Below are positions 6,715 to 62,161 of a stretch of DNA of 64,000 nucleotides, piece after piece (the stretch's first letter is position 1; each line of letters starts with the position of its first letter). The position numbers and the translations under genes are program-made. The notes below the pieces were generated by a model. The model was not told the DNA's origin and made no database searches. It worked only from the letters and a program-made list of their open reading frames with translations. The stretch comes from Membranipora membranacea (taxonomy: Eukaryota > Bryozoa > Gymnolaemata > Cheilostomatida > Membraniporidae). Where the stretch lies: assembly GCA_914767715.1 (NCBI GenBank), contig OU612075.1:1240001-1304000 (forward strand). The letters run 5' to 3'.

Positions 6715-7233
6715 ATTAAGGCCCAGTCCGCAGTCAGTAGAATATAAGTAGGCCTATCTTTTATTGGTGTCAAACCAAGTGTGCAGACAGTAGTATTTTA
6801 TGTATCTTATTCTTGTGCCCTGAAGGCCCAGTCTGCACATACACTCAGTAGAATATTAGGTATTTTGTAATTGTGTTGATGGCCAAGTCTGCAGTCAGTA
6901 GTATTTTATGTATCTTGTACTTGTAACATAGAGGCCTAGTCTGTATATGCACTCAGTAGAATATTAGGTATCTTGTAAGTGTATCATAAAGGCTCAGTTT
7001 GCAGTCAGTAGTATTTTATGTATCTTGTACTTTTGCCCTGAAGGCCCAGTCTGCACATACACTCAGTAGAATATTAGGTATCTTGTAAGTGTGTTGATGG
7101 CCAAGTCTGCAGTCTGTAGTATTTTATGTATCTTGTACCTGTGCCCTGAAGGCCCAGTCTGCACATACACTCAGTAGGATATTAGGTATCTTGTAAGTGT
7201 GTTGAAGGCCAAGTCTGCAGTCAGTAGAAAATT
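6715..7233. repeat. Satellite array, period about 109 bp
   Basis: Blocks containing aggcccagtctgcacatac and cagtagtattttatgtatc recur at about 108-110 bp spacing (about 6821, 6926, 7039, 7147). Each is built of two related half-units of about 55 bp. There are about 4.7 copies. One more partial unit continues at 7559-7605, on the other side of the inserted MITE. Confidence 0.8.
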
Positions 7234-7610: not shown

Positions 7611-7697
7611 GTGTGTCAAAACACTGGTGACCAACATGAGTAACATACAGTATGACTTAGCATCAAGCTTTCACTTAGCTTGGTAATAGAAATATAC
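7611..7697. repeat. Resumption of long repeat unit copy 0
   Basis: This segment matches 60757-60848 (ctggtgaccaacatgagtaa, then catacagtatgacttagcat). It shows that 2706-7610 interrupts the unit. The match ends where the caspase-gene-derived segment begins. Confidence 0.75.
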
Positions 7698-8123
7698 AAT
7701 GGGTGCTGCTGTCCTGATTCTCCATTGTATGTAATTCTGTACTTGAGGCTGAGTGTTTCCGACCGCCTCGGTGGTTTTCAAAACTACAATGAAACCAAAA
7801 AGATTACTTTTGAAAAAAGGTTTCAACAGTACATTGGCCTTTCAAAGTGTAAACAACCAGCTTCTGTAAAGAAAATGGAGCGGCATATTCTTCCCACCTT
7901 CAAAATTTTATTTAAGCCAAAGATATAATTTGGACTTTGGAGAGTGATGTAACAGTCAAAATCACATTGTGTTGAGCTATTTTTAATTTACAATCTTTAA
8001 TCATTTTTACCTGGTACCCATTCTATAGTTGTGGTAGTATTACCATCAGGATATCTGGGATCTGTCAGAGATTGTGGATGTTCTCCAGCTCTTCTCATAT
8101 TAACTCCAGGTCTGAGGTATAAC
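7698..8123. repeat. Duplicated 3' end of the caspase gene (flank plus part of last exon)
   Basis: This matches 27167-27582 in the same orientation with modest divergence. It covers the 3' flank of the ROCO-caspase gene and the end of its last exon. It stops abruptly at 8123, at the edge of the element 8124-9916. The same pair of sequences at both loci argues for a segmental copy rather than two independent insertions. Confidence 0.8.
8006..8123 (-). pseudogene. Fragment of the caspase p10 terminal exon
   Basis: The minus strand reads LYLRPGVNMRRAGEHPQSL, then TDPRYPDGNTTTTIEWVP. This is nearly identical to the C-terminus encoded at 27460-27583. Only the 3' part of the exon is present and no other caspase exon lies nearby, so it cannot encode a protease. 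It is either a truncated duplication or the remains of a second gene copy cut by the neighbouring element. Confidence 0.8.
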
Positions 8124-9916
8124 CATAGAGTTATTATATACTCTAGAGTGGACAATGTGTACAAAAATAGCATTAGTTTTTGTCCTACTTAATTATTGCG
8201 AAATCCATGACGCGACGCAATCCGGTTGTGCAAGGCTAATGCCTGTATCATATAATTTATCATTGAGGATTTAGGAATCGGGTATGAAAATTTAAGTTTT
8301 TCGGAAAAATTTTCATGGCCCACTATGTGGAACACTTGTAGGTATTTTCACTTGCAGCCATCGGAAAATTTTTCTATGTTTTCCCATCAAAATAAGCCAA
8401 AACTCCAACCGCAAACACATCATTGTGATGAAAAAAATTACCGGGCTAGCTTGTTTTTTCTACTGCCACTTGCCAGCCATATAAGCTGTGTCCTGTCTCT
8501 CTTACTCATATGTTACACATTCAGTGGGTCTTTTATTTTTGATTAAATGAAGTACAAGTAGCCTGTGAACAAGTGATCAGAGGTGTAAAAGTATGCCGCT
8601 TGCCTCATTTTCAGTCACAGTGTACATAAAGTCCGGATTCAGATTTGCTCTCCAGATAACATTACTTTATTGGGGATATTATAATAAGTTTTTCTGTTTC
8701 TTATGTCGAAGAAGATCAATTAAGATTGGTCCTAAAATCAGATGTGGTGTTACTGTCAGTCCTCATTGCTCATAAGATCACTTTCTGCCTCTCTTATATT
8801 TTTATAGCATCAATCCACTTCTGACGGAGAATCACAGCTGTATGAAATGCTAACCCTGGTCATTTCAAAGGATTACACACTACTACACTAATCAATCTTC
8901 CCTCAATACTATGCAAACAAATACACATGTATACGTCAACTGCCAGTGCCTTGACTGGAGTGTATACAAAATATTCTTTATGATACTGAAGTTGCCATCT
9001 CAACTAATTTACAACACAAACAAACAACCATAGTCATAATTAGCATACCAGAAAATTGTATCAAACATCCACAACAACCGACCGCTCTGAAGCAAATGGT
9101 CCCTTATTTCAAGTATGGTGAGAATTCAGAAATATCCGTCAACTTAAAATGTCACCTTAGTGAGTGTTTGTTCTGTAAAATCTGGAGTCAGTCTGGATAG
9201 GTATGTGAGTTTTCCATTCAAAGATTCACTTGATACTCAGCGACTTATCAAAAACGACATGCATTCATTTATACGCTTTCAAAACCTGCTGTGTATGGTT
9301 GAATGGTTTTGCGAATTCAAAAACTAGAGGACACCACTAGAGAGGGAATTTAGAACTCTAAATGCCATATCTAGACGCCGAATCTTATGTCAGAACCGTA
9401 TGTAAATTGCTTCTGCAAATGGCGGAACTTAGAGGCCGACTTTTAACCTCCAGTCAGTTTTTCCAGAAGCTATGTGTACACCATGTACTGAACAAATAAC
9501 ATTAACTCACTTGATGGCTAACATAAGAGTAAAAGAGACAGAATACAACTTATGGTTGGGAGAAACGTGGAAAAAACAAGCTAGCCCACTAATTTTTTGT
9601 CATCACAATGATGTGTTTGCGGTTGGGGTTTTGGCTTATTTTGATTGGAAAACATAAAAAAATTTTCCAATGGCTGCAAGTGAAAATACCTACAAGTGTT
9701 TCACATTGTGTGACATGAAAAAGTTACGCAAAAATGGCTATAAGCGCTCTAAAACATAAATTGTCATGCTCAATACCTATATTCTCAATTATAAGTTATA
9801 TAATACGGGCACTAGCCATGCACAACCAGATTGCGTCGCGTCATGGATTTCGCAATAATTAAGTAGGACGTTTTGAGCACTGCATTGTCCACTCTAGAGT
9901 ATATAATAACTCTATG
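8124..9916. mobile_element. 1.8-kb inverted-repeat element
   Basis: The left end catagagttattatatactc is mirrored at the right end by gagtatataataactctatg. Pairing continues, with gaps, over about 340 bp per arm. Examples are aattattgcgaaatccatga / tcatggatttcgcaataatt, and the arms at about 8320-8460 against 9545-9705. Its left flank ggtataac and right flank agtacaac agree at 6 of 8 bases, a weak hint of a target duplication. No transposase is visible. It abuts the truncated caspase exon copy. Confidence 0.75.
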
Positions 9917-10160
9917 AGTACAACCCTCAGTATAACAGCTCTGCTAGGTTGGCTTTGCCACTAGTACGACCCTCAGTATAAAAGCTCTGCTAGGTTGGCT
10001 TTGCCACCAGTACGGCACTCAGTATAACCGCTCTGCTAGGTTGGCTTTGCCACCAGTACAACCCTCAATACAACAGCTCTGCTAGGTTGGCTTTGCCACC
10101 AGTACGACCCTCACTATAACAGCTCTGCTAGGTTGGCTTGGCCACCAGCACGACCCTCTC
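9917..10160. repeat. 46-bp tandem repeat, 5 copies plus a partial
   Basis: Unit starts at 9917, 9963, 10009, 10055 and 10101 are exactly 46 bp apart, with a decayed copy at 10147. The core reads agctctgctaggttggcttt. The array lies directly against the right end of the 8124-9916 element. Confidence 0.9.
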
Positions 10161-14148: not shown

Positions 14149-14397
14149 GTATACATCATATATATCATATACATCATATATATCATATACATCATATACA
14201 TTGTATGCATCATGTACATCATGTACATCATATATATCATATACATCATATGCATCATATACACCGTATACATCATATACATCATATACATCGTATACAC
14301 CGTATACACCATATACATCATATACATCGTATACATCATCTACAGCATGTACATCATGTACATGCATATACATCATATACATCGTTATGTATATGTT
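14149..14397. repeat. Microsatellite/minisatellite of atatacatc type
   Basis: About 250 bp are built from 9-bp units such as atatacatc, with variants (gtatacacc, atgtacatc). It starts at the donor of WDR exon 4. Long frames open in several phases on both strands are an artefact of the repeat. Confidence 0.92.
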
Positions 14398-27061: not shown

Positions 27062-27160
27062 TTCATGGGCTCGGAGCCGGGCCTGCTCTCGGACTAGGAG
27101 TAGGCCGTGTTCTCGGTCTAGGAGTAGGCCTTGTTCTCGGTCTAGGAGTAGGTCTAGGTC
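27062..27160. repeat. 24-bp minisatellite
   Basis: Unit of the type ttctcggtctaggagtaggc, about four copies. It gives arginine-rich open frames on both strands that I regard as artefacts. Confidence 0.85.
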
Positions 27161-27166
27161 TCACTA

Positions 27167-27459
27167 TGGGTGCTGCTGTCCTGATTCTCCATCGTATGTA
27201 ATTCCGTACTGGAGGCCGAATGTTTCCGACAGCCTCGGTGGTTTTCAAATCTACAATGAAACCAAAAAGATTACATTGGAAAAAGATTTCAACAGTACTT
27301 TGGCATTTCAAAGTGTAAACAACCAGCTTCTGTAAAAATAATGGAGCGGCGTATTCTTCCCACCTTCAAAATTTCATTTAAGCCAAAGATATAATTTGGA
27401 CTTTGGAGAGTGATGTAAAAATCCAGATCACATTGTGTTAAGCTATTTGTAGTTTGCTA
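27167..27459. other. 3' flank of the ROCO-caspase gene, shared with 7698-8005
   Basis: Non-coding sequence directly downstream of the stop codon. It is duplicated with part of the last exon at 7698-8123. It probably includes the 3' UTR. No convincing polyadenylation signal was identified. Confidence 0.55.
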
Positions 27460-27711
27460 TTAATTTTTACCTGGTAACCATTCTATAGTTGTGGTAGTAC
27501 TACCATCAGGATATCTGGGATCTGTCAGAGATTGTGGATGTTCTCCAGCTCTTCTCATATTAACTCCAGGTCTGAGGTATAACTTTCTTACGTCTGTGAG
27601 AGTAGATATCATCTTAGGCATCTGAGCTACGTAAGCTGCTTTCAGACCAGGATTAGCTGCACGTAAAGCCTGTGTTTGCTCTACTCCATATCTACTGACA
27701 GCCTCTCTTAC
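27460..27711 (-). CDS. ROCO-caspase exon 13 (p10 end and C-terminus)
   Basis: It starts after cacaaag in phase 0. VREAVSRYGVEQTQ leads to VAQMPKMISTLTDVRKLYL, which matches the caspase p10 end (QMP...STL...LYF). A 38-residue extension follows (RPGVNMRRAGEHPQSLTDPR onward) and stops at TAA 27460-27462. The sequence CCAG|GTAAAA just before the stop could also be a donor, so a further 3' exon is possible but none was seen. Confidence 0.85.
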   Translation of the reverse strand, partial: VREAVSRYGVEQTQALRAANPGLKAAYVAQMPKMISTLTDVRKLYLRPGVNMRRAGEHPQSLTDPRYPDGSTTTTIEWLPGKN

Positions 27712-30700
27712 CTTTGTGTAGAAAATGAAAATTATACCAAAGGCATCAATATGGAGATGGGCGCATATGCTATACAATTCAAATATAAGCATAATCAAGT
27801 CGAGATCAAATGTTGATTTGGAATGTAAGGTCAATACATCTCACATCTGGTGTGGATGGCGTTCTCGTAGCTGAGGGTTTTTGTTGACCCTGACAGAATC
27901 AAGTTTTATATGGCAAGGTTTAACTCTCATTCAAGTTCACTAACCTAGTCCATATTAAATTAATGCGTTATAATACTCACTAGCTCCCCCAAAGTTACGA
28001 CATCAAACTGTCCTGCAAACTTGTAGAGCGTTACGACCAGTGCTCTGATGAATGCCGATCCTGTTTCAGATGATCTGGGAGACACAAATGCTACAAAACA
28101 AGTATTCATTATGATGTTAACCTGATTACAATGGGCATTAAACCTGATTTTATGACATCACATAGATTGGGAGAGGGAAGTTGTGGAAAAGATGATTATA
28201 AATAGTTGATAAAGTAAATTGCGTGGAAAAGGCTCGAATTTGGACTCATATACTCTTGAATACCTTACTCCTTTATCATTTTTGTTAACAGCCATTGTAT
28301 GAGAGGAACTACCAAATATAAAACTTACTGTCAAAACTTGACTGCATAATTATCAGATCAGCCACTGATATTGTCTCATTGATACTGTCTACTTCAGGTA
28401 ACAGCTGCATGACATCACTTCCTGTCTGATACAGATCTCCTTCTCTAGGTGCTGATGATGTCACTACTAGATCAGATGTAGTGGGGAGAGGTTCAGGTGC
28501 AGCTGCACTCAGCTCCGAGATTGAGGGAACTGAGTCTGTGTTATCTAACAACATCTCTCTGCTACCTGTAAGGACGATCACCAGAAACTGATACCAGAAC
28601 ACAGTACTAAACATAAATCATATAGATAGACACATACACACAGTAATCTGGTGTTTTTAGTGTAAGTTGTATTGACCTACTAAATATGTATCAAATCAGA
28701 TCTCATTGATTTGTATGGAGCTGCTTACACTTGACTGCACAGTTGTCAGACCTGGGAGAGCAACTCCAAATTAGAACTATGAGTTCAGACTTGATCGATA
28801 TAGCAACATGGCAGAGCAGCATTGAGTAAATGTTACATATTTAATTGATCAATTTTGATCAACTTGCCTGCGTTAGGAGTTGCCCCTCCTTTACTGCGAC
28901 GTGACCAGTAGAGAGGGGCAACTCCAAACTCAGGCAAATGGATCAAACTTGATCTACATTATTACCATCAACAATCACACTTACAACATGTTTAATATAT
29001 ATATCCAATACTCTCAAAGGCCACATGTGTTGATGTTTGACAGCTTTCAAGATTGTGAAATATTTCAGATGCTGCTCATTACTTAACACGGGATAAACTT
29101 TACCTGGAGACCGTGGCTGGCTGCTCAAACTAAAAGATAGGATAATATTTCACTTACTTCCAGCACAAGCTTGTATTACGATGAGTTTTGGTTTGCCCCG
29201 CATGGCTGGGAAATTTCTTGCGGAGACCATCTTGCATATGTCTGTGAGCTTGACCAATTTACTGTCCACACCTGCCACACAGCCTTCAGTGCCATGACTT
29301 GTGATCATCAGTACAAACACTCCGAGGTTCTTATAGACAGATTCTCCTGTTTCATCTACCAGTTGTGTCTCTCTGTGAATTGCCTCCACCATTTCCTGAA
29401 ATATAAATCAAGTTGTGACATCAATAAGCTACACCTGCAAGGTTAACAACATTATCACAAAAAATGTGTGTACGTGACAAGAAAGAGTATTTTTAGTTAC
29501 GGATAATGATTGCATCTATAAGTAAGGTAAAGAAATAGATAAGTGAATGCAACTATATTTTACACTCATGTTAGATTTACACGATCAATACCTTTGCTGT
29601 GTAGTTCTGATGACCACCTACAACAACAAACCCAAGCTTCACTAAAAGAGCTCTCATATTTCTGTAGTCATGTTCTGAGCCTTTCCTGTATGAGCCGTTG
29701 GGCAGTTTGTACTCATTAGATATTAGGAGTGCTCTCCCCCGTGTCTCAGTCATCGTATACTGGAAATAAAAGGCAAATATATAAGTACCAACACAATCTG
29801 TGTTTTGCTCATACTCGACTAAATAAATAATTGAGGCTGTGATAAATCAGCTGACATCACAAAGTTTATCTGTCTTGTAAAATGATAAAAAGAATTTCTG
29901 AATATTATGTAATTGATAGGGAGGGAGAATGTACGCATGTAATTTTAAGCACATGAGATTCACAGCATCTTGCAAAAGATATAATTATCACATTAAATAA
30001 CACAATGAAAAGACATAAAAATATACTGCAGGAGTCAGTGTAACCTGATTGGCTGAGAGTCCGACAGTATTTATCTGAGGGTCCTGAATTATAAGAGCTG
30101 GCTTCTCTCTCATCTCCTTCATTATCTCCTCAATCATTGCTCTGTCTACGGCTGCGGCTTCTAGAAGTGAAAAATCAAAATTCCGATGAGTCTTGTGGTT
30201 TTTAGAAAGTGGATATCAAGCCTTCTCATTCTCAAGATTATTATCATTAATCAAGCTACTTTTGAGCAGGCCTGTTTATCTATGTTGTGTCACAATCTCA
30301 GCTATAACAGAACATAACACTGTATACATACAGAGACAAAGATTTGTACATACGGTCAGAGGCTGGTGGTGATGTAGGATTCTGACCAGTATTTATCATT
30401 GCTGTTTGTGAAGGTTGAGAACTTTGACGATGTGGGATCGATCTCAGATAGTCCTTGATTTGTGTCTTCTCATCAGCCGTCAACTCGAAACCTGTAAAAT
30501 TGAAAATTAAGTTTATACTTATGTTCGCAAGTATTAAGAAAAGCCTTGTAGTATAAATTTTAAGTTTTCAATAAATTCTCTGGATCTGATCTTCCAGCGA
30601 TAGAAAAGACTAACTTTGTAGTTAATACTGTTATAGATATTATAATTTAAGATATAGGTATTCAATTAAAGTTATCTTCACTTGATATGCCCGAAAAAGT

Positions 30701-33700
30701 AAAAAGACTTACTAGGAAATCTGAGTGGAGAAGGGACTACAAGAGATCCTCCGTTAGATCTGGCGTTAAGACATTCAACAGGCTCTACACCTGGGAAGGT
30801 CCTCAATCTACTTCTGAGTGGAGGGTCTGTGGCAGGGTCTGATGGTGGTGTGTACCAATCTGGATCTGTGTCACAGTCTGGTTTTTCTTCTCCTGTGTAG
30901 ATACAGTGGGCACAGAAGAACTTACAGACGGGATGAGCAGCTACCCATACAGACTTCAGGTTCTTTATTACAGCTTCTAAGACATCGATAGCTTGTTTCC
31001 AGCAGGATTCTAGCTGATCTACTGGGGTGTCAGAGTAGAGGAGAACTTCTCGCTTGTTGTGATTGTGAAGCAGTATTGTGATCTTCTGACCATGATGAAC
31101 AAGTGCTCCATTCTTTGCAGCTCGTATCTTGTACCTAGGGTCTGTGAACTGATTCAAGAATGCAACGACAAGCAAGTGGTAGACATAAGAGGGAGGGGGT
31201 AAACCAATAAACCGGATAGCCAGTTTAACTCTCAGAAGACCAGCTGTGGTGGGAAGGAGCTCAATGACATCCGATGATAGGTACGGTATGATGAACTTAT
31301 CCCTTAATGATGTTTTTATTGGTCCACAGAGAAGGTAGAAAGTCTGCAGGAGACAGATCGCCACATCTCTTGGGAATATCTGATTGTCATAGAGACTCAT
31401 AAGAAGACACTCATCAAGGACTCCACTTCTTTTGAAGCATTCGACCATTGAGATGTACTTCTCCGCACTAACTATCTTATTGCCAAACTCAAAAGGCTCA
31501 AACTCATCAATACGTTGATCCCACATTTCTTCCCGTTTGTGATCGAACAGGGTAGCTATCACTTCGGTGATTGCAGATGTTTTGTGAAACACGATCCCCT
31601 TCAACATGTCCTCTTTTTCAAACCACATTAATCTGCCCTCATTGTGCATGTATCTAATGACAATCTCAACATGTTTTTCTGCTGGAAATTTGGCGAGAAT
31701 GTCAGAAACATATATAAAGGGCATTTCGGCCTGATTCTCAATAAAACTGGCTATTTTCTCCCATATGAAAGGAATCTTCACGCTATGATCCAGGCACTTC
31801 TCAGACAATGCTTTGAGTAGAGCATAAATGCTATTGAGGTCATTCAAGTCATTGCTCACCACATATGTATGCATAGCGCTGAATATTGTATTCCTCTTAT
31901 TAGAAAAACACTCAATCTCCGAGATTAAGTTCATTCTTCTTTGTGCTGCTAGTGTCCTCTCCTCTTCAAGCATCCTTGAACGTAGCTTTTCCACAGACTC
32001 CAGGAGCTCAGATTTCCGTAGATTAAAGTCTTCTATTGTTAGTTTGTCTCTGTGTGTGAGAACAAGGAACGGGGGTCCCAACTTTGGGCAGGAGATGTAC
32101 AGGTGGGAGAGAAAATCTGTGCAAAGCTGTTTAGTGGCCTCTTCAATGTTCTTGGACCTGACTAGCTGGTCAAACTGTTCCATATTCACTACAACAATAG
32201 GGATATAACTGGGCCTTATGGTGAGCTGATATGAGAGGTGATAAACTTTATCACCTCCCAAGTCAAACATTCTCAGCATATTCTGCCCTACAGGGATTTC
32301 ATTGACTTCAAACACTTTGGTTGTCTCATCGTCCCAAGCAGACTCATCTCGATGTGTGAGCTGTCGTGTCTGACTCTTCAGACTCCTTATCAGACTAGTT
32401 TTTCCCGCCATTCTGTTCCCGATGACTGCGGCAGATATGATTGGTCGCCTGACACCAGATTTCTCATCTAGATCTGTGTAGTATTTCCTGATTGCAGCTA
32501 ATCCTTGCTCACAGACTGCATATGGAGGAGATTTGAGATTAAAACATCTTCTACAGTCCAGTTCTATCAGGTTTGGTAAGTCTATCACTGCTGGATTAAG
32601 GTCCTCTAGAGATCTTATGTAAAGCAGATTCAGATGTGTGAGAGACTTCAGTCTGGTCACAACAGCAGGCAGATATCTGAATTTGTTGTGGCTGAGATCT
32701 AACTTCTCTAGTCTGGTCAGACTATCCAGCCTATAGGAATTAGAATAGATGAAATGAAGGTGATGTCAATGAAGCAATTAGAGACAAACCAATAATCCAT
32801 ATACAATAATGTAGGTAACACTAAAGTGTGGACTGACAGACTTACACATTTGATGTACAAATCAAACGTTAAAATTGCTGACATAACCTAGCCTTGTCAC
32901 GCCTTGTCATTTTTTTGGTTTTTTTTTGTGAAAAAAACCAAAACCCGTGGCCGCGTGACAAGACTAGACACAACCAACTATGATGGGCCATGTTTATTTT
33001 CTGCATTTAACGCATGAACTGAATTCTAACTTTTCTAAATTGTATACCCTTTATACCATCCACCAATATTTTTCAAAGTTATGATTTTGGCTTTTAAAAT
33101 GATTTGATTTGAGGTTGTTGAACCTGAGATATAACTTCTCTAGTCGGGCCAGACTATCCAGCCTATAAGATTAATAATAGATGAAATGAAGGTGATGTCG
33201 ATAGAGCAATAAGAGACAAAACATTATTCTGTATAATAATGTAATGTGGACTGACAGACTTACACATTGGATGTAAATACCCAATGCTAAAATTTCAGGC
33301 ATAACTACCTATGATTGGCCATATTTTCTTTCTGCATTTAAACTTTTCTGGATGGTCTACCCTTCAAACTATCCACTAATATATTTCATACGCCATGAGA
33401 CCTTTGATCAATATCTTTGTTGGGATATCGGGGTGTTTAACCTCAAAAGGTTGCAAATTTTTGGTTAATTTTTTGCAGACTCTGCCAAATCTGTTAAAAC
33501 TATGTTAACTGGTGGGGATCGTTTTATATGTTGTAATTTAGAATTTGAAGTTTTGATAATATTAATTCCTTTTAAGATAGTTGGGTGATTTGTATCATAG
33601 CAGGATGCGGTTGAATCTCATCATAAGTAAATTGTAGGATAAAGCTAAAGTGACCTGTCTTAAAAATTAAGTTGAATAGGGTAGTTTTTTCCTCAGATTA

Positions 33701-36700
33701 TCAGATGAGACCATGAATATGCAATTTATTATTTATGTTATCACTGGAGCAGAGTGCACATTTTTGGTAGATGGCCAGGGAAATTAGGATAGAATCTAAA
33801 CGCAAAGATATTATATATGCATCTTATGCTCAACTACTTAATTGAACCAGTATTTAATTTAATTTAATTAGATAACCACTATATCATTTATAACGATAAG
33901 TATTAGTAAAAGACAATCCAGCTTTGAATTAAGTACACATACTACATAGGTCATGCCTTAAATGATTTTTTGAAAGAAAAACTTTGCATTTTAATTTCAT
34001 AATAATCCAAAACAATCCTACATTTAAATCAATACACCTGGAATTTTTATGTAAGGAAAATTCCCCACATCCTCCTGCGCTGAGCTTCAAGGCGTTTGAT
34101 GAGGTATTTATCTTTTAACATATATTTTATATTTAATTTGAATCGTTATAGAAATACAGAACTTCAAACACCTATTTCTAAAATAATATAGGGCAAATCT
34201 TTGGCTATCCTAAAATATGAGGAAAAGGGCGGTTAGCTAAAACACCAGAAAAAATTGTATTCTGCTCCTTCAACGGTCAACATTAATTTTTGCAGGACTT
34301 TGATTTCACCTGATTATCAAGGGACATAACGTCAACAAACACAACAAACTGAACTATAGGAGAGTTTACTATTGAAAAATAGGAATCAGGAGTGGTGTAA
34401 AGGTGAAGACTTCTAACTTGAATACAACACACCTCGCATGCAGTAAAAAGATCCCCTCTGCCTCTTCAATATTCTTTGACTTTACTCATATTTATTTTTG
34501 TTATCCCCTGTCTATACAACAACAGTTTAAACACCAAAATCTCTCAGCATATTCAATGTTTGTGACAAAATAAACCATCAAACCAAAGAATTACCAGATC
34601 TTTGGCGGGCAAGGGTATGGAGAGCGGTTTGAGTACCATGGGTCCAAGCACCTGTATCCTAGAGGGAACAGCTCTCTCCACATCGAACACTTAAACTTAG
34701 ACCATGAAAATTAAATTGGAAATTCCTCTATACTAATTTAACCACGCTGGTCAAATTTAAAACCGGGAAGCAGGCATGACAATGCCATTAAACTTACCTC
34801 TTGTAACCAAAAAATATTAAAAAAACATCGCATGAGCTAGCAAAACAAAGTCTTTAAAGCTTTAATTTGAATTGAGGGGATAAAAACAAAACTAATAAAC
34901 ATTGTGGTTCATTCATTTGAATTAATTAACATGGAGAAAGGAAATACAAAGACTATCCTCAATCAAGTTTCAAGTTTCCTGACACATCTTATATTATAAT
35001 TTCAAACATCAAATTACATTAAAAAATTAAAAACGTTAATTTTACTCAATAAAATCATAATAGATGCCGTAGTTCAATGTTTTATTGATTGTTGAATCTA
35101 TCACAGGACCAGGTTGAGACTTCATTGGTCAACTTTTTTAGGACCAACAAATTTTCCTAATCTAATTTGAATGCCCCTGCAAACCGCTGACAGTGAAGTG
35201 AACAATTTGTATCCCTTTCTGTCTGATATGAACATCATTACGACAAGAACTGGTCCTATAAGAGCCTCATGAGTCAAAAATTGAAGCTGATAAAATATGA
35301 AGTTATAAAATTGACGATAATCTATTCCATTGGAACCCGCCTATTTAAAAATTCAATTAGTGGTTTTTTTAGCACAGACCGAGATGAGGCTACACTGATA
35401 TTCTTGTCTCAAATAATTCAGCTAAAATAAACTGCTGTCAAATTGTACCAAATTGATACCTCCTTCTGGTTCATGATAAATTAATACAACCAGAACTAAC
35501 ACTAGACGAGATTGGACAAGAGAGCTACTTTATTAGTCTAGTTCTGATCCATCATCCCCCCTCCCAAATTTTACATATATCTTAAGTATGCACAATTGGT
35601 GAGCACAAAAATAGGAATGTGGAATAAATAATTTTGGTCAAGCTGGTGAAAATTGAAGTTTTAAAGTTATTGATATTTTGACTTTTTTGGAAACTATTTT
35701 TCGTCACAGCTGCTTTATTAGGCTAGCTATGATCCATCATCTTCCCAAATTTTAGCTTTACCAGAATGCAAAATGGAATTTGTGATGACAAAAATAGGAA
35801 TCGGGAATAGATAAATTTGGTGAAGCTGATAGAATGTGAAGTTTTAAAATTGTGGATAATATATTCTTCTGGAACCCGCCTATCTTTTTATACAGCCTCG
35901 TGAGTCAAAAATTCAACTTCAGATAATCATGGAGGGAAAAAGCATTCAAACTTATCTGAAGCTCTTATCTATTGAGATACACACACCAGACTCACCTGTC
36001 ATCTAGAGATGATAGCTTACAGCGAGACAGACTCAGCACTCTGAGGGAGGTAAGACTGTATATAACAGAAGGCAGACCACCCACTGAGAAGTTATTACGT
36101 CCTATACGCAGCTCCTCCAGCTGACTCAGCTCAGACAGTCTGTCAAATATGTACAAAATAATGTTATATGTAATCAACACGTACAAGATGAAAGATCCCT
36201 GATTAAATTATATCCTATAATATTAACACGCGTAACAAAATAGCATTATATCTTTACCAATTTAAATCATATATAAAATGGATACAACTTGAAAATTCAA
36301 TTAGTGGTTATTTTAGCACAGACCGAGATGAGGCTACACTGATTTTCTTGTCTCAAATAATTCAGCTAAAATAAACTGCTGTCAAATTGTACCAAATTGA
36401 TACCTCCTTCTGTTTTATGATAAATTAATACAAACAGAACTGACACTAGATGAGATCGGACAAAAGAGCTACTTTATTAGTCTAGTTCTGATCCATCATC
36501 CCCCCTCCCAAATTTTACATATATCTTAAGTATGCACAATTGGTGAGCACAAAAATAGGAATGTGGAATAAATAATTTTGGTCAAGCTGATAGAATGTGA
36601 AGTTTTAAAATTGTGGATAATATATTCTTCTGGAACCCTCCTATCTTTTTATACAGCCTCGTGAGTCAAAAATTCTACTTCAGATAATTATGGGGGGAAA

Positions 36701-39387
36701 AAGCCTTCATACTTATCTGAGGCTCTTATCTAATGAGATACACACACCAGACTCACCTGTCATCTAATGATGATAGCTGACAGTCAGACAGACTCAGCAC
36801 TCTGAGGGAGGTAAGACTGTATATAACAGGAGGCAGACCACCCACTGAGAAGTGATTATGGAGTATATGCAGCTTCTCCAGCTGACTAAGCTTAGACAGT
36901 CTGTCAAATATGTACAAAATAATGTTATATGTAATCAAGACGTACAAGATGAAAGATCCCTGATTAAATAATATCCTATAATATTAACACGTGTCACAAA
37001 ATAGCATTATATCTTTACCAATTTAAATCATATATAAAATGGATACAACTTGAAAATTCAATTAGTGGTTATTTTAGCACAGACCGAGATGAGGCTACAC
37101 TGATTTTCTTGTCTCAAATAATTCAGCTAAAATAAACTGCTGTCAAATTGTACCAAATTGATACCTCCTTCTGTTTTATGATAAATTAATACAAACAGAA
37201 CTGACACTAGATGAGATCGGACAAAAGAGCTACTTTATTAGTCTAGTTCTGATCCATCATCCCCCCTCCCAAATTTTACATATATCTTAAGTATGCACAA
37301 TTGGTGAGCACAAAAATAGGAATGTGGAATAAATAATTTTGGTCAAGCTGATAGAATGTGAAGTTTTAAAATTGTGGATAATATATTCTTCTGGAACCCT
37401 CCTATCTTTTTATACAGCCTCGTGAGTCAAAAATTCAACTTCAGATAATCATGGAGGGAAAAAGCATTCATACTTATCTGTAGCTCTTATCTAATGAGAT
37501 ACACACACCAGACTCACCTGTCATCTAGAGATGATAGCTGACAGAAAGTTAGACTCAGCACTCTGAGGGAGGTAAGACTGTATATAACAGGAGGCAGACC
37601 ACCCACTGAGAAGTTATTATTTATTATCCACAGCTCCTCCAGCTGACTGAGCTTAGACAGTCTGTAAAATATGTACAAAATAATATTATATGTAATCAAT
37701 CAGTACAGGATACAAGATTTCAGATATTTCTCATAATGTATCATCAAATATCATATTATATTACACAGTTACTCCATCTAACTTAGTCTATCAAATATAA
37801 TTAGCCAGTAATTGATTTATCTATGTCCCATTGCTATCATAATATACTAATCAAATAATTTGGACATATTATGTCTAAATTATCTATATTTGATTATAAG
37901 AATATCATATATCATGTTATCTCTTTTACAGTTAGGTAATTTGAAAATAAGACTTTGTTGAAATGAATTTGTATTTTGAAAAACACAAATTTTTGCATTC
38001 ACAACTGATGAATGAATTAGAAATAATCATAACAATGATTACAATTTCCATCTAATTCTACTCACCCTGTAAGTGATCCACTGGTAGACCTCAGATAGAG
38101 ATGTGTAAGATGAGGAGCTATAGACCTCAGACTATCAGATACCTCACTGTGATATATAACCATGTGAGTTATAGAGTGAGATCCTACTCTACTCTTTATC
38201 TCACTGATAGTCTGAGGTTTGGTAGTAACTGTGATCCCATTAGCCTCACCTCTACGTCTGATACACAGATCACCGAATATATCTACTCCCGCACTCTCTA
38301 CCTCTGCCTCTCCACTGTGTCTGTACCAGACATTATATTCTATAATATAATAATATTAATCATATATAATCAGTGCTGTCATCCTAATAAGGTCTAGTTA
38401 ATGTGTAATCTGGTATTTATCAGATTATACTGATAATCATCTTGTCCCTTGTGATATGATATGATTATGGGCTATTAGCATCTTATGATGTATGAGATCA
38501 AAACTCCTAACATTATATTAAGGTTTTTCTGTACAGCCTGACACTTCCTGGTATAAACAATTGCTGTGGCGATGGTTTACCAGGACGTTGGTAGGTTATA
38601 AAATAACTTATTGGCTTCTGTATAGAAATAACCAACATAAAAATAAATTCTTGTTAATGTGTAATCTGGTATTTATCTGTTTATACTGATAATCATCTTG
38701 TCTCTCATCATATGATATGATAATATGATTATGGGCTGATTAGCTATTAGCTTATTATGATGCATGAGATCACAACACCAGACTAAATAAAAAATCCTTT
38801 ACTGTATAGCCTCACAATTCCTGGTATGGCCAATTGTTGTGGTGATGGTTTTATCAGGACGTTTAAAGGTAGTGGTTTTGAATAAATTATTGGCTTCTGT
38901 ATAGAAATAACTAACATACAATTTGACTGTCTGTTTTCTGTACTGAAAATACAATTGCGTGCAAATGGCTAAATAATCTTGCGAGATGGGAGCATACCCT
39001 ATTGATTTACAAGCTCAAGATTTGGAATCATCATATCTTGTCGAGAACGAAATGGAAATTTTAATTTCATCTGTCTACTTAGCTCCATAATGAGATCTGC
39101 CTTTGATTGCCCCAAACCTAGTGAGAGTCCCCTGAGTAAAGTACAGGGGGTCATAATAGTGAAGAGGTTATTTTTGTCGTTATGAAGCTTGTATGAGCGG
39201 GGGGGGGGGAACTAAGCTGGTATTAGCAAAAAATTTGTGGTTACTTACTCGATTCCTCATCCCTGTCCTCGTCCTCACTCTCACTCTCAATCTCAATCTT
39301 ATTCTCATCCTCATCAACACCATCACTCTCACTCTTATTTTTTTTCTCACTCCTTCTCTTGATTAACCGTTTACTTGCACCGAGCAT
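27460..39387 (-). CDS. LRR-Roc-COR-caspase fusion protein (about 1373 aa, 13 exons)
   Basis: The gene model joins 39249-39387, 38066-38339, 37518-37661, 36757-36900, 35996-36139, 30713-32730, 30354-30491, 30045-30160, 29592-29759, 29158-29395, 28329-28565, 27981-28090 and 27460-27711. Every junction keeps phase. Predicted order: charged N-terminus (1-46), unknown region ending in an LRR-like stretch (47-138), LRRs (139-about 350), Roc GTPase (about 375-590) with P-loop GNRMAGKT (386-393), DLGG (438-441) and THRD (507-510), COR (about 595-870), linker (about 900-1040), caspase p20 (about 1046-1174) and p10 (1254-1373). Active-site His1129 lies in SHG and Cys1172 in QACAG. From family knowledge, Roc-COR is a GTP-driven dimerisation switch and caspases are activated by proximity. 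I infer a cytosolic sensor that activates its own protease. No kinase domain and no CARD, DED or death domain were recognised. The start ATG (39385-39387) may follow a 5' UTR intron, since ctttcag precedes it. Confidence 0.85.
27981..28090 (-). CDS. ROCO-caspase exon 12 (caspase p10, first part)
   Basis: It starts after ttgtag in phase 1 and ends at gtgagt in phase 0. It reads FVSPRSSETGSAFIRALVV, then TLYKFAGQFDVVTLGEL. This is the p10 substrate-pocket strand (S-W/Y-R...G-S-W/F). Here Pro stands where Trp or Tyr is usual (SPR), and Ala replaces Trp in GSAF. Confidence 0.85.
28329..28565 (-). CDS. ROCO-caspase exon 11 (p20-p10 linker)
   Basis: It joins exon 10 in phase to give QACAGSSREMLLDNTD, followed by a Ser/Pro/Thr-rich stretch (SVPSISELSAAAPEPLPTTS) and VADLIIMQSSFD. 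Such linkers are cut after Asp in caspase maturation. DNTD and several later Asp residues are candidates. At about 80 residues it is long for a caspase linker. Confidence 0.8.
28866..28944. repeat. Short hairpin element, family H, copy 3
   Basis: Arms ggagttgcccctcctttact and agagaggggcaactccaaac face a gcgacgtgacc loop. It lies within the intron between exons 10 and 11. Confidence 0.75.
29158..29395 (-). CDS. ROCO-caspase exon 10 (p20 with catalytic dyad)
   Basis: It starts EMVEAIHRETQLVDETGESV. FVLMITSHGTEGCVAGVD holds the catalytic His, and KPKLIVIQACAG holds the catalytic Cys in QACxG. Both catalytic residues are intact, so an active protease is expected. It ends at gtaagt in phase 1. 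Confidence 0.92.
29592..29759 (-). CDS. ROCO-caspase exon 9 (caspase p20, first part)
   Basis: It reads YTMTETRGRALLISNEYKLP, then NGSYRKGSEHDYRNMRALLV, then KLGFVVVGGHQNYTAK. RG.ALLI.N, R.GSE.D and L..LGF are the classic start of the caspase large subunit. Arg in YRKGSEHD corresponds to an S1-pocket arginine. Both ends are phase 0. Confidence 0.88.
30045..30160 (-). CDS. ROCO-caspase exon 8 (pre-caspase segment)
   Basis: It starts after acttctag in phase 1 and ends AATCAG before gttaca, a weaker donor, in phase 0. It reads AAAVDRAMIEEIMKEMREKP, then ALIIQDPQINTVGLSANQ. It leads directly into the p20 start. Confidence 0.7.
30354..30491 (-). CDS. ROCO-caspase exon 7 (linker)
   Basis: It starts after attttacag and ends at gtatgt, phase 1 on both sides. 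It reads FELTADEKTQIKDYLRSIP, then a Ser/Gln/Pro-rich stretch to PTSPPASD. Too short for a death-fold domain and probably flexible. Confidence 0.75.
30713..32730 (-). CDS. ROCO-caspase exon 6 (last LRRs, Roc, COR)
   Basis: A 2018-bp exon after ctatag, ending at gtaagt in phase 1. It opens with two to three LRRs (LDSLTRLEKLDLSHNKF, then LTHLNLLYIRSLEDL). The Roc domain follows: P-loop GNRMAGKTSLIRSL, switch region MFDLGGDKVYH, base-recognition THRD. Then comes COR (IPFIWEKIASFIENQ onward, including a winged-helix-like MHNEGRLMWFEKED). THRD resembles the THLD of LRRK-type Roc domains. No kinase follows. It ends in a proline-rich, charged tail (DPDWYTPPSDPATDPPLRSR). Confidence 0.92.
32890..32975. 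repeat. Imperfect intronic palindrome
   Basis: cttgtcacgccttgtca and ttttttggtttttttttg face gaaaaaaaccaaaa and cgcgtgacaagac. A small, degenerate foldback. Confidence 0.5.
33120..33300 (-). pseudogene. Decayed partial copy of the exon 6 start
   Basis: It resembles 32696-32880, the start of exon 6 plus its upstream intron. The minus strand reads LDSLARLEKLYLRFNN after an AG, then loses similarity without a donor. It is probably a leftover LRR exon duplication, not used in the model. Confidence 0.6.
35996..36139 (-). CDS. LRR cassette exon 5
   Basis: Same size and phase. Variable strands read LEELRIGRNNF and LSLSRCKL. The next exon in the transcript is 30713-32730, across an intron of about 3.3 kb. 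Confidence 0.85.
36757..36900 (-). CDS. LRR cassette exon 4
   Basis: Same size and phase as exon 3. It differs at LEKLHILHNHF (against LEELWIINNNF) and LSLSDCQL (against LSLTFCQL). About 15 of 144 bases differ, most of them amino-acid changing, while the flanking intron is nearly unchanged. Confidence 0.85.
37518..37661 (-). CDS. LRR cassette exon 3
   Basis: A 144-bp exon, phase 2 at both ends, encoding two LRRs: LSKLSQLEELWIINNNFSVG, then GLPPVIYSLTSLRVLSLTFC, then QLSSLDD. Being a multiple of three with equal phases, it can be added or skipped without breaking the frame. First of three tandem cassettes in transcript order. Confidence 0.85.
38066..38339 (-). CDS. ROCO-caspase exon 2 (N-terminal region, first LRR-like strand)
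   Basis: It starts after ttatattatag and ends at gtgagt in phase 2. It reads YNVWYRHSGEAEVESAGVDI, continues FGDLCIRRRGEANGI, and ends SIAPHLTHLYLRSTSGSLT. The end resembles an LRR strand (LTHLYL). The rest (residues 48-115) matches no family I recognise. Confidence 0.65.
39249..39387 (-). CDS. ROCO-caspase exon 1 (start, charged N-terminus)
   Basis: It begins MLGASKRLIKRRSEKK, a basic cluster, then becomes acidic (VDEDENKIEIESESEDEDRD). It ends in phase 1 at gtaagt. The basic patch could be a nuclear-localisation-like signal. The acidic tail is low complexity. Confidence 0.65.
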
Positions 39388-50469: not shown

Positions 50470-50955
50470 ATGATTAAGTTATATTATATATATATTATGT
50501 TATACTGGATATATATATTATGTTATATTGGATATATATATATAATGTTGTATTGGATATATATTATGTTATATTGGATATATATATACTATGTTGTGTT
50601 GGATATATATATTATGTTATATTGGATATATATATTATATTATATTGGATAGATATATTATGTTATATTGGATATATATTATGTTATATTGTATATTTAT
50701 TATGTTATACTGGATATATATTATGTTATATTAAATATATATATTTTATGTTGTATTGGATATATATTATGTTATATTTGATATATATATATTATGTTGT
50801 ATTGGATATATATTATGTTATATTGGATATATATATTATGTTATATTGGATATATATATTATGTTATATTGGATAGATATATTATGTTATATTGGATATA
50901 TATTATGTTATATTGGATATATATATTATATTATATATTATATATATTATGTTAT
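50470..50955. repeat. AT-rich minisatellite (tattggatatatat type)
   Basis: About 17-20 units of variable length (about 22-32 bp) of the form atattatgttatattggata. Long hydrophobic Tyr/Ile frames here are repeat artefacts. Confidence 0.95.
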
Positions 50956-61707: not shown

Positions 61708-62161
61708 AAAAGACTGCTATACGGCCAGCTCTGGCGTATGGGAATGAGACCTGGCCGTAACAAGAACCCTTATAGACAGGGTTAGCTCTTGTGAAATGCG
61801 AATACTAAGGTACTGCATGGGGATAAGCTTAGAGGAACATCGAAGGAATGAAGAGATAACTGCCGAAGCAAATATAATGCCAATCAGGGATGTCATGAGG
61901 AAAAAGAGGCTAGAATGGTATGGTCATGTTTGTCGACGTGAGAGTAATGAAGATATCAGGAGAGTGTACGAGATGAGGGTAGAGGGAAGCAGAGGGCGTG
62001 GACGGCCAAAACAGCGCTGGAGTGACACAATCAATGCCGACCTTCGCTGGCTAGATCTAGAACGAGGTGATACAAGTGACCGAATAAGGTGGAGAAGTTT
62101 GGTGGAACTAGGAGTCAGGCAAAAACCCGCCACCCGATCAGGACATGGCGGTGAAAGGTGA
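61708..62161 (+). pseudogene. LINE 3'-end fragment (RT C-terminal region)
   Basis: It starts KTAIRPALAYGNETWP before a stop. After a break it reads VSSCEMRILRYCMGISLEEH, then VMRKKRLEWYGHVCRRES, then GRGRPKQRWSDTINADLRW. RP.L.YG.E.W, MR.LR, RL.W.GHV.RR and RGRP..RW are the usual C-terminal motifs of non-LTR retrotransposon ORF2. Upstream RT motifs are missing, so it is 5'-truncated and dead. It interrupts the unit relative to 51360-51410. Confidence 0.85.

Follow-up and report, generated by a model that had tools for sequence, protein, structure and literature searches.

A predicted spliced LRR-Roc-COR-caspase gene with divergent LRR cassettes in the bryozoan Membranipora membranacea

Introduction

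Prokaryotic proteins in which leucine-rich repeats (LRRs), an AP-GTPase and a COR domain follow one another in a single chain have been described as having rapidly evolving LRRs and are predicted to form counter-invader systems (Kaur et al. 2021, PMC8195603). As described there, at least 24 domains occupy the C-terminal effector position, including TIR, caspase and trypsin, and AP-GTPase is the name given to what others call Roc (PMC8195603). Here we analyse a predicted gene of comparable layout from an animal, the bryozoan Membranipora membranacea. It lies in a stretch of 64,000 nucleotides (GenBank assembly GCA_914767715.1, contig OU612075.1, positions 1,240,001 to 1,304,000 of the forward strand), which we call the window and to which all coordinates refer. 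In the predicted protein, LRRs, Roc and COR, in this order, are followed by a full p20/p10 caspase.

Parts of this design are known from other eukaryotes. Amphioxus has LRRs-caspase and TNFR-caspase hybrid genes (PMC2575513), which resemble the bryozoan gene in that an animal sensor is fused straight to a caspase, as a "shortcut" from recognition to death; they differ in that ROCO and GTPase are absent from the main text of that paper. In brown algae, LRR-ROCO genes are reported in which phase-2 LRR exons have been shuffled and the concave side is under positive selection (PMC11378527), and the bryozoan gene likewise has tandem phase-2 LRR exons, signs of diversifying selection on the concave face, and ROC-COR downstream. 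The algal exons, however, are reported to have 72 bp and one repeat each, in genes of the form LRR-ROC-COR only, whereas those found here have 144 nucleotides and two repeats and are followed by a caspase; the phase is the same, but exon length and repeat number are not. At least 17 ROCO genes are described from placozoans, some with CARD, death and other domains (PMC4104024). These proteins, together with LRRK1/LRRK2, DAPK1 and MFHAS1, have the same Roc-COR core, often LRRs, and in some cases links to cell death, but the partner domains described for them are others, not caspase (PMC4104024, PMC6337361, PMC6320773). Neither of the two later ROCO reviews (PMC6337361, PMC6320773) has the word "caspase" in its main text, and no animal ROCO-caspase was found among the matches listed in the open-access PMC literature.

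The original prediction for this locus took the layout to be undescribed, a claim that must be trimmed: LRR-Roc-COR proteins with caspase effectors are described for bacteria in PMC8195603, and two of the database relatives discussed below are LRR-Roc-COR-CHAT proteins. With the bacterial LRR-AP-GTPase(Roc)-COR-effector proteins described there, the bryozoan gene shares the domain order, the rapidly evolving LRRs, the C-terminal effector and a predicted immune function. Unlike the bacterial genes it is spliced, and its caspase is of the animal type, nearest to CED-3 and caspase-2, and not a CHAT domain. The new points are therefore an animal-type spliced gene that combines ROCO with a p20/p10 caspase, and the apparently diversifying LRR cassettes in front of them.

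Results and discussion

One frame joins the ROCO and caspase halves

On the minus strand from 39387 to 27460, 13 exons join into one frame of 1373 residues, with its sole stop at the end; all 12 introns are GT-AG and the phase is kept at every exon junction. The exon structure of the original prediction was thus recovered in full, as were its motifs, which lie in the joined protein at 386 (GNRMAGKT), 438 (DLGG), 507 (THRD), 1128 (SHG) and 1170 (QACAG), with SPRSS following at 1257. Its view that LRRs, Roc, COR and a complete caspase belong to one gene is supported by the common frame, the Pfam matches and the structure model of exon 6, and by the junction described below. We regard the single-chain LRR-Roc-COR-caspase gene as a well-supported gene model and a strong prediction, not as an established fact.

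The two ends are the least secure parts of this model. Exon 1 (39249..39387, residues 1-46), with the putative start and an acidic low-complexity N terminus, was placed by an open frame and the splice donor GTAAGT, and it is the least certain exon as regards the true start. Exon 2 (38066..38339, residues 47-137), which precedes the LRR cassettes, has no in-frame stop, compared with 8 and 10 in the other frames. The 3' end is uncertain: exon 13 (27460..27711) encodes the end of p10 and the C terminus, but if a donor at 27471 were used, a candidate alternative exon 14 (27063..27250, minus strand), which is in phase with that donor and encodes a proline/arginine-rich tail, would come next and give 1432 residues in all.

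Between the ROCO half and the caspase half lie two linker exons, 7 (30354..30491) and 8 (30045..30160). With exons 6 and 9-13 as the training set, a codon-usage score supports the predicted frame of exon 8, at 0.42 bits per codon. This exon, which immediately precedes p20, carries the frame of exon 6 into that of the caspase exons; joining exon 6 directly to exon 9 would be out of frame. Exon 7 has 138 nucleotides and identical phase at both ends, so that exon 6 joins exon 8 in frame without it, and the fusion is therefore independent of exon 7. Two features weaken the junction. Exon 7 is marginal, scoring 0.12 bits per codon when 95% of 2000 stop-free, presumed non-coding windows score below 0.14, and exons 8 and 9 have donors (GTTACA and GTATTG, respectively) that appear weak, as judged by eye.

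An alternative model has two adjacent genes, an LRR-Roc-COR gene whose frame reads on past the exon 6 donor to a stop at 30681, and an effector caspase with a short prodomain starting from a Met in exon 7 or 8. The exon 6 frame does reach a stop soon past its donor, exons 7 and 8 contain in-frame Met codons that would give the caspase an ordinary short prodomain, and there is little coding signal in exon 7. We nevertheless consider this arrangement improbable. The donor at the end of exon 6, GTAAGT, matches the phase of exon 7, and also that of exon 8 if exon 7 is skipped; introns 6 and 7 have just 221 and 193 nucleotides, and the third intron before exon 9 is also short (285 nucleotides). Moreover, the coding strand from 30969, inside exon 6, to 28996, past exon 10, has neither AATAAA nor ATTAAA, so that nothing obvious marks the end of a gene between the halves.

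Divergence of the LRR cassettes

The LRRs of the joined protein match Pfam LRR_4 with an E-value of 2.2e-24. Exons 3 (37518..37661), 4 (36757..36900) and 5 (35996..36139) are tandem cassettes of 144 nucleotides, phase 2-2, with two LRRs each, and they lie inside 761-bp duplications that include intron sequence; exon 4 lies 761 bp from exon 3 in such a tandem duplication. As exposed positions we took 12 sites within the two LxxLxLxxNxL motifs of each cassette. The amino acid varies among the three cassettes at 10 of 47 codons, and 8 of these 10 fall within the 12 exposed positions (P 5.8e-5).

For the three cassette pairs, base differences in the exposed codons amount to 11/36, 10/36 and 10/36, versus 14/342, 27/334 and 27/335 in the flanking intron. 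The exposed codons are higher in every pair (P 2.2e-6, 0.0012 and 0.0011), at 3.4 to 7.5 times the intron rate, whereas the remaining cassette codons (4/105, 4/105 and 5/105) do not differ significantly from the intron (P 1, 0.19 and 0.39). Because the exposed codons exceed the flanking intron while the other codons do not, the pattern suggests diversifying selection on the concave, ligand-binding face of the LRRs, although gene conversion of the introns could mimic it. When a longer intron stretch is used, exons 3 and 4 differ at 15/144 bases versus 17/615 in the intron (P 0.0002). Rapid evolution of the LRRs, as in LRR-AP-GTPase-COR-effector systems, is thus seen in the exposed codons of three of three pairs, within one allele.

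Several points speak against selection of this kind. The exposed positions follow the LRR consensus, but they were defined with the alignment already in view; in addition, the three pairs, compared within one allele, are not independent of each other. With equal flanks, the whole-exon excess is significant for exons 3-4 only (P 0.011; 0.59 and 0.48 for the others), and the whole-cassette ratio of non-synonymous to synonymous substitution rates (dN/dS) is 0.64, 1.79 and 1.04. The cassettes might then differ merely by relaxed constraint at the surface, and the gene would be an ordinary signalling protein and no diversifying receptor. Relaxed constraint alone would likewise place changes at exposed positions, and it agrees with a dN/dS that is not uniformly above 1 and with whole exons rising significantly above intron in one pair of three. 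Against it, the exposed codons outpace the flanking introns in the counts given above, and relaxation cannot go above the neutral rate unless the introns were homogenised by gene conversion. We therefore give relaxed constraint a low probability, and favour diversifying selection.

A relic-like copy of an LRR exon start is found at 33051..33162 (minus strand) inside the 3.3-kb intron 5. With its surroundings it aligns over 213 bases, at 78% identity, with the beginning of exon 6 and the adjoining flank, and its frame hits a stop after 36 codons.

The Roc-COR module

Exon 6 (30713..32730, residues 282-954) encodes the last LRRs, the Roc GTPase (P-loop at 32420-32394) and the COR domain. The Roc P-loop and switch motifs are present as GNRMAGKTS, DLGGD and THRD. 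A structure model of exon 6, with a predicted local distance difference test score (pLDDT) of 64, matches bacterial Roco and LRRK1/2 along LRR-Roc-COR; it aligns to LRRK2 over model residues 1-649 and to CtRoco (6hlu) over 1-650, and isolated CtRoco COR structures match it likewise. Motifs and modelled fold together indicate a Roc with a COR directly after it, as expected for a member of the ROCO family, with the COR weak by sequence alone.

The profile searches proposed with the original prediction gave a divided outcome. Peptidase_C14 was found with high significance (see below), while the ROCO domains of the joined protein stayed below their Pfam cut-offs: Roc has an E-value of 2.1e-5 (25.2 bits, cut-off 27) and COR-A one of 0.0063 (16.9 bits, cut-off 35.3), and COR-B, the dimerising half, has no match at E 0.5. 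In this the protein is unlike all 17 ROCO relatives scanned, in which Pfam does match COR-B. The identity of COR-B is taken from the model, which is of moderate confidence in this region (pLDDT mostly 50-70).

The caspase

Peptidase_C14 matches residues 1046-1330 of the joined protein with an E-value of 3.8e-31, over profile positions 1-230 of 233, and the closest matches of this region in the PDB are CED-3 and caspase-2, CED-3 being the best. The p20 subunit starts in exon 9 (29592..29759), which has a presumed S1-pocket arginine in YRKGSEHDY, and continues in exon 10 (29158..29395), with the catalytic His (SHG) and Cys (QACAG); the frame of exon 10 taken alone matches Peptidase_C14 at E 5.2e-11. 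Exon 11 (28329..28565) encodes the intersubunit linker and the first p10 strand, and exon 12 (27981..28090) a further part of p10, including what is presumably the other S1-pocket arginine (VSPRSSETGSAF).

In the alignment to CED-3, SHG and QACAG correspond to SHG and QACRG, so that the catalytic His and Cys are retained, and RKGSEHD and SPRSS correspond to RNGTKAD and SWRNS, whose arginines in p20 and p10 we take to be S1-pocket residues. The intersubunit linker has six Asp, of which the best candidate for self-cleavage is LPEVD/S (Asp 1234), and the linker between COR and p20 has another candidate site, AAVD/R (Asp 1006). A working protease is less certain in view of the p10 alignment to CED-3, which is weak by itself (9.6 bits); and because Pro replaces the Trp of SWRN and the pentapeptide reads QACAG, caspase activity is uncertain. 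That the caspase part is a pseudo-enzyme with a regulatory or scaffold role, as this Pro, the Ala of QACAG and the long linker might indicate, seems to us unlikely, given that both catalytic residues and the presumed S1 arginines remain in place and that the profile match spans 230 of 233 positions.

Intron 10 contains an imperfect inverted repeat (28847-28954, 82% over 110 aligned bases).

Relatives in sequence databases

Each protein homologue search scored about 8000 candidates, those sharing most words with the query, so that absence from the results is not proof of absence. The full-length query matched 277 proteins at E 0.001, mostly plant and microbe LRR proteins among the 120 listed. 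In the precomputed Pfam annotation of these 120 of 277, PF00656 was not found, but two ROCO proteins have PF12770 (CHAT). One (P0049) has Roc at 277-389, COR-A and COR-B, and CHAT at 834-1103 (E 8.4e-30), and the other (P0003) has CHAT at E 2.5e-7; both are LRR-Roc-COR-CHAT proteins, which we take to be bacterial. CHAT is a caspase-like peptidase, so that the two proteins would represent the design in its bacterial form, using a different branch of the peptidase clan.

With the LRRs removed from the query, a single protein (P0121, JGI source, 1573 residues) was below E 0.001 (E 9.2e-6; 7994 proteins scored). It shares LRR-Roc-COR with the bryozoan protein but has a death domain at its C-terminal end (Pfam E 9.9e-10), not a caspase. 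The caspase part as query, within a whole-protein length window, gave no match at E 0.001.

Among bacterial and archaeal ROCO loci there were at least 264 relatives, of which 80 were kept. A QACxG/DxCxxG-like motif more than 500 residues past DFGGQ occurs in none of the 80, in a crude screen that would miss CHAT, and four of the 80 frames (L033, L038, L058 and L060) end within 300 residues of DFGGQ. Nine of the 80, picked among the loci whose C-terminal parts are longest, were scanned with Pfam, which matched no C14, no CHAT and one TIR. The latter is an LRR-Roc-COR protein of Adonisia turfae (L078:4882-8730) that ends in TIR (TIR_2, E 1.1e-14), so that the same chassis here has a different effector. 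In P0049, P0003 and L078, as in the bryozoan protein, one chain thus contains LRR, Roc, COR and a C-terminal effector; an example with Peptidase_C14 itself was not met among the bacterial relatives examined. Viral contigs contained four remote relatives. NCBIfam gave LRR and GTPase-like matches only, far below the cut-offs, and PADLOC gave none.

Proposed function and mechanism

Animal death receptors normally signal via adaptor domains to separate caspases. The chain predicted here joins a diversifying LRR array and a Roc-COR GTPase module to a p20/p10 caspase that has the catalytic His and Cys and both presumed S1 arginines. We lean towards the view that the gene encodes a self-contained, single-chain intracellular death receptor of an animal, with a role in immunity or allorecognition. 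Tentatively, and with the balance somewhat against it, we also suggest that a one-chain apoptosome arose in an animal independently of bacteria, in which tandem LRR exons that duplicate and diversify provide recognition, ROCO sets the threshold and the caspase executes, with no CARD/DED adaptor.

In such a receptor, the LRR face would bind an intracellular non-self or altered-self ligand, and binding would loosen the LRRs from Roc-COR and drive the nucleotide cycle. COR-mediated dimerisation would then set two caspase domains side by side and make them active. The active caspases could cut themselves in the long intersubunit linker, most probably at Asp 1234, and perhaps also in the COR-p20 linker at Asp 1006, and the released protease would kill the cell or start a caspase cascade.

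Initiator caspases become active when brought together, and it is reasonable to suppose, with the original prediction, that ROCO dimerisation would bring two caspase domains into contact. The C-terminal half of COR is described as dimerising Roco proteins (PMC6337361), and the C. tepidum Roco as forming dimers without nucleotide but mostly monomers with GTP (PMC6337361, PMC11052575). Since this Roco is monomeric with GTP, dimerisation driven by GTP is unproven and perhaps reversed, and by analogy dimers should be expected with GDP or no nucleotide rather than with GTP.

With sensor, switch and executioner apparently in one chain, as in the predicted bacterial systems, this would be a clear case of the same design having arisen or been kept in animals. 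If the gene does encode a one-chain apoptosome, cassettes varying in number or sequence between individuals would make the gene a candidate immune or self/non-self recognition locus. It would also offer a testable system for the control of an output enzyme by a ROCO GTPase, a question that is open for LRRK2, with caspase cleavage as an easier read-out than kinase signalling.

Other features of the window

A copy of the 3' end of the gene (27163-27583) is present at 7696-8123 on the minus strand, with 91.6% identity. Its coding part differs at 2/121 bases and the rest at 26/300 (P 0.008), which looks like constraint on the coding part. A second complete gene at this place was considered and rejected, there being no similarity to the gene upstream, and the copy is taken as a fragment. 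Just upstream of it, a stretch at about 8120-9930 is flanked by inverted copies of one sequence, as judged by eye, and might represent a mobile element with one end at the fragment.

Ten other open frames of the window have no Pfam match above cut-off. One, at 61748-62158 on the plus strand, resembles what we take to be the tail of a LINE (long interspersed nuclear element) reverse transcriptase, likewise with no Pfam match above cut-off. The sole Rfam match in the window is tRNA-like (RF00005, 15581-15658, plus strand, 32.5 bits, cut-off 29), and tandem arrays lie at 6775-7227, 9917-10158, 14150-14383 and 50473-50955, with units of 108, 46, 9 and 23 bases, respectively.

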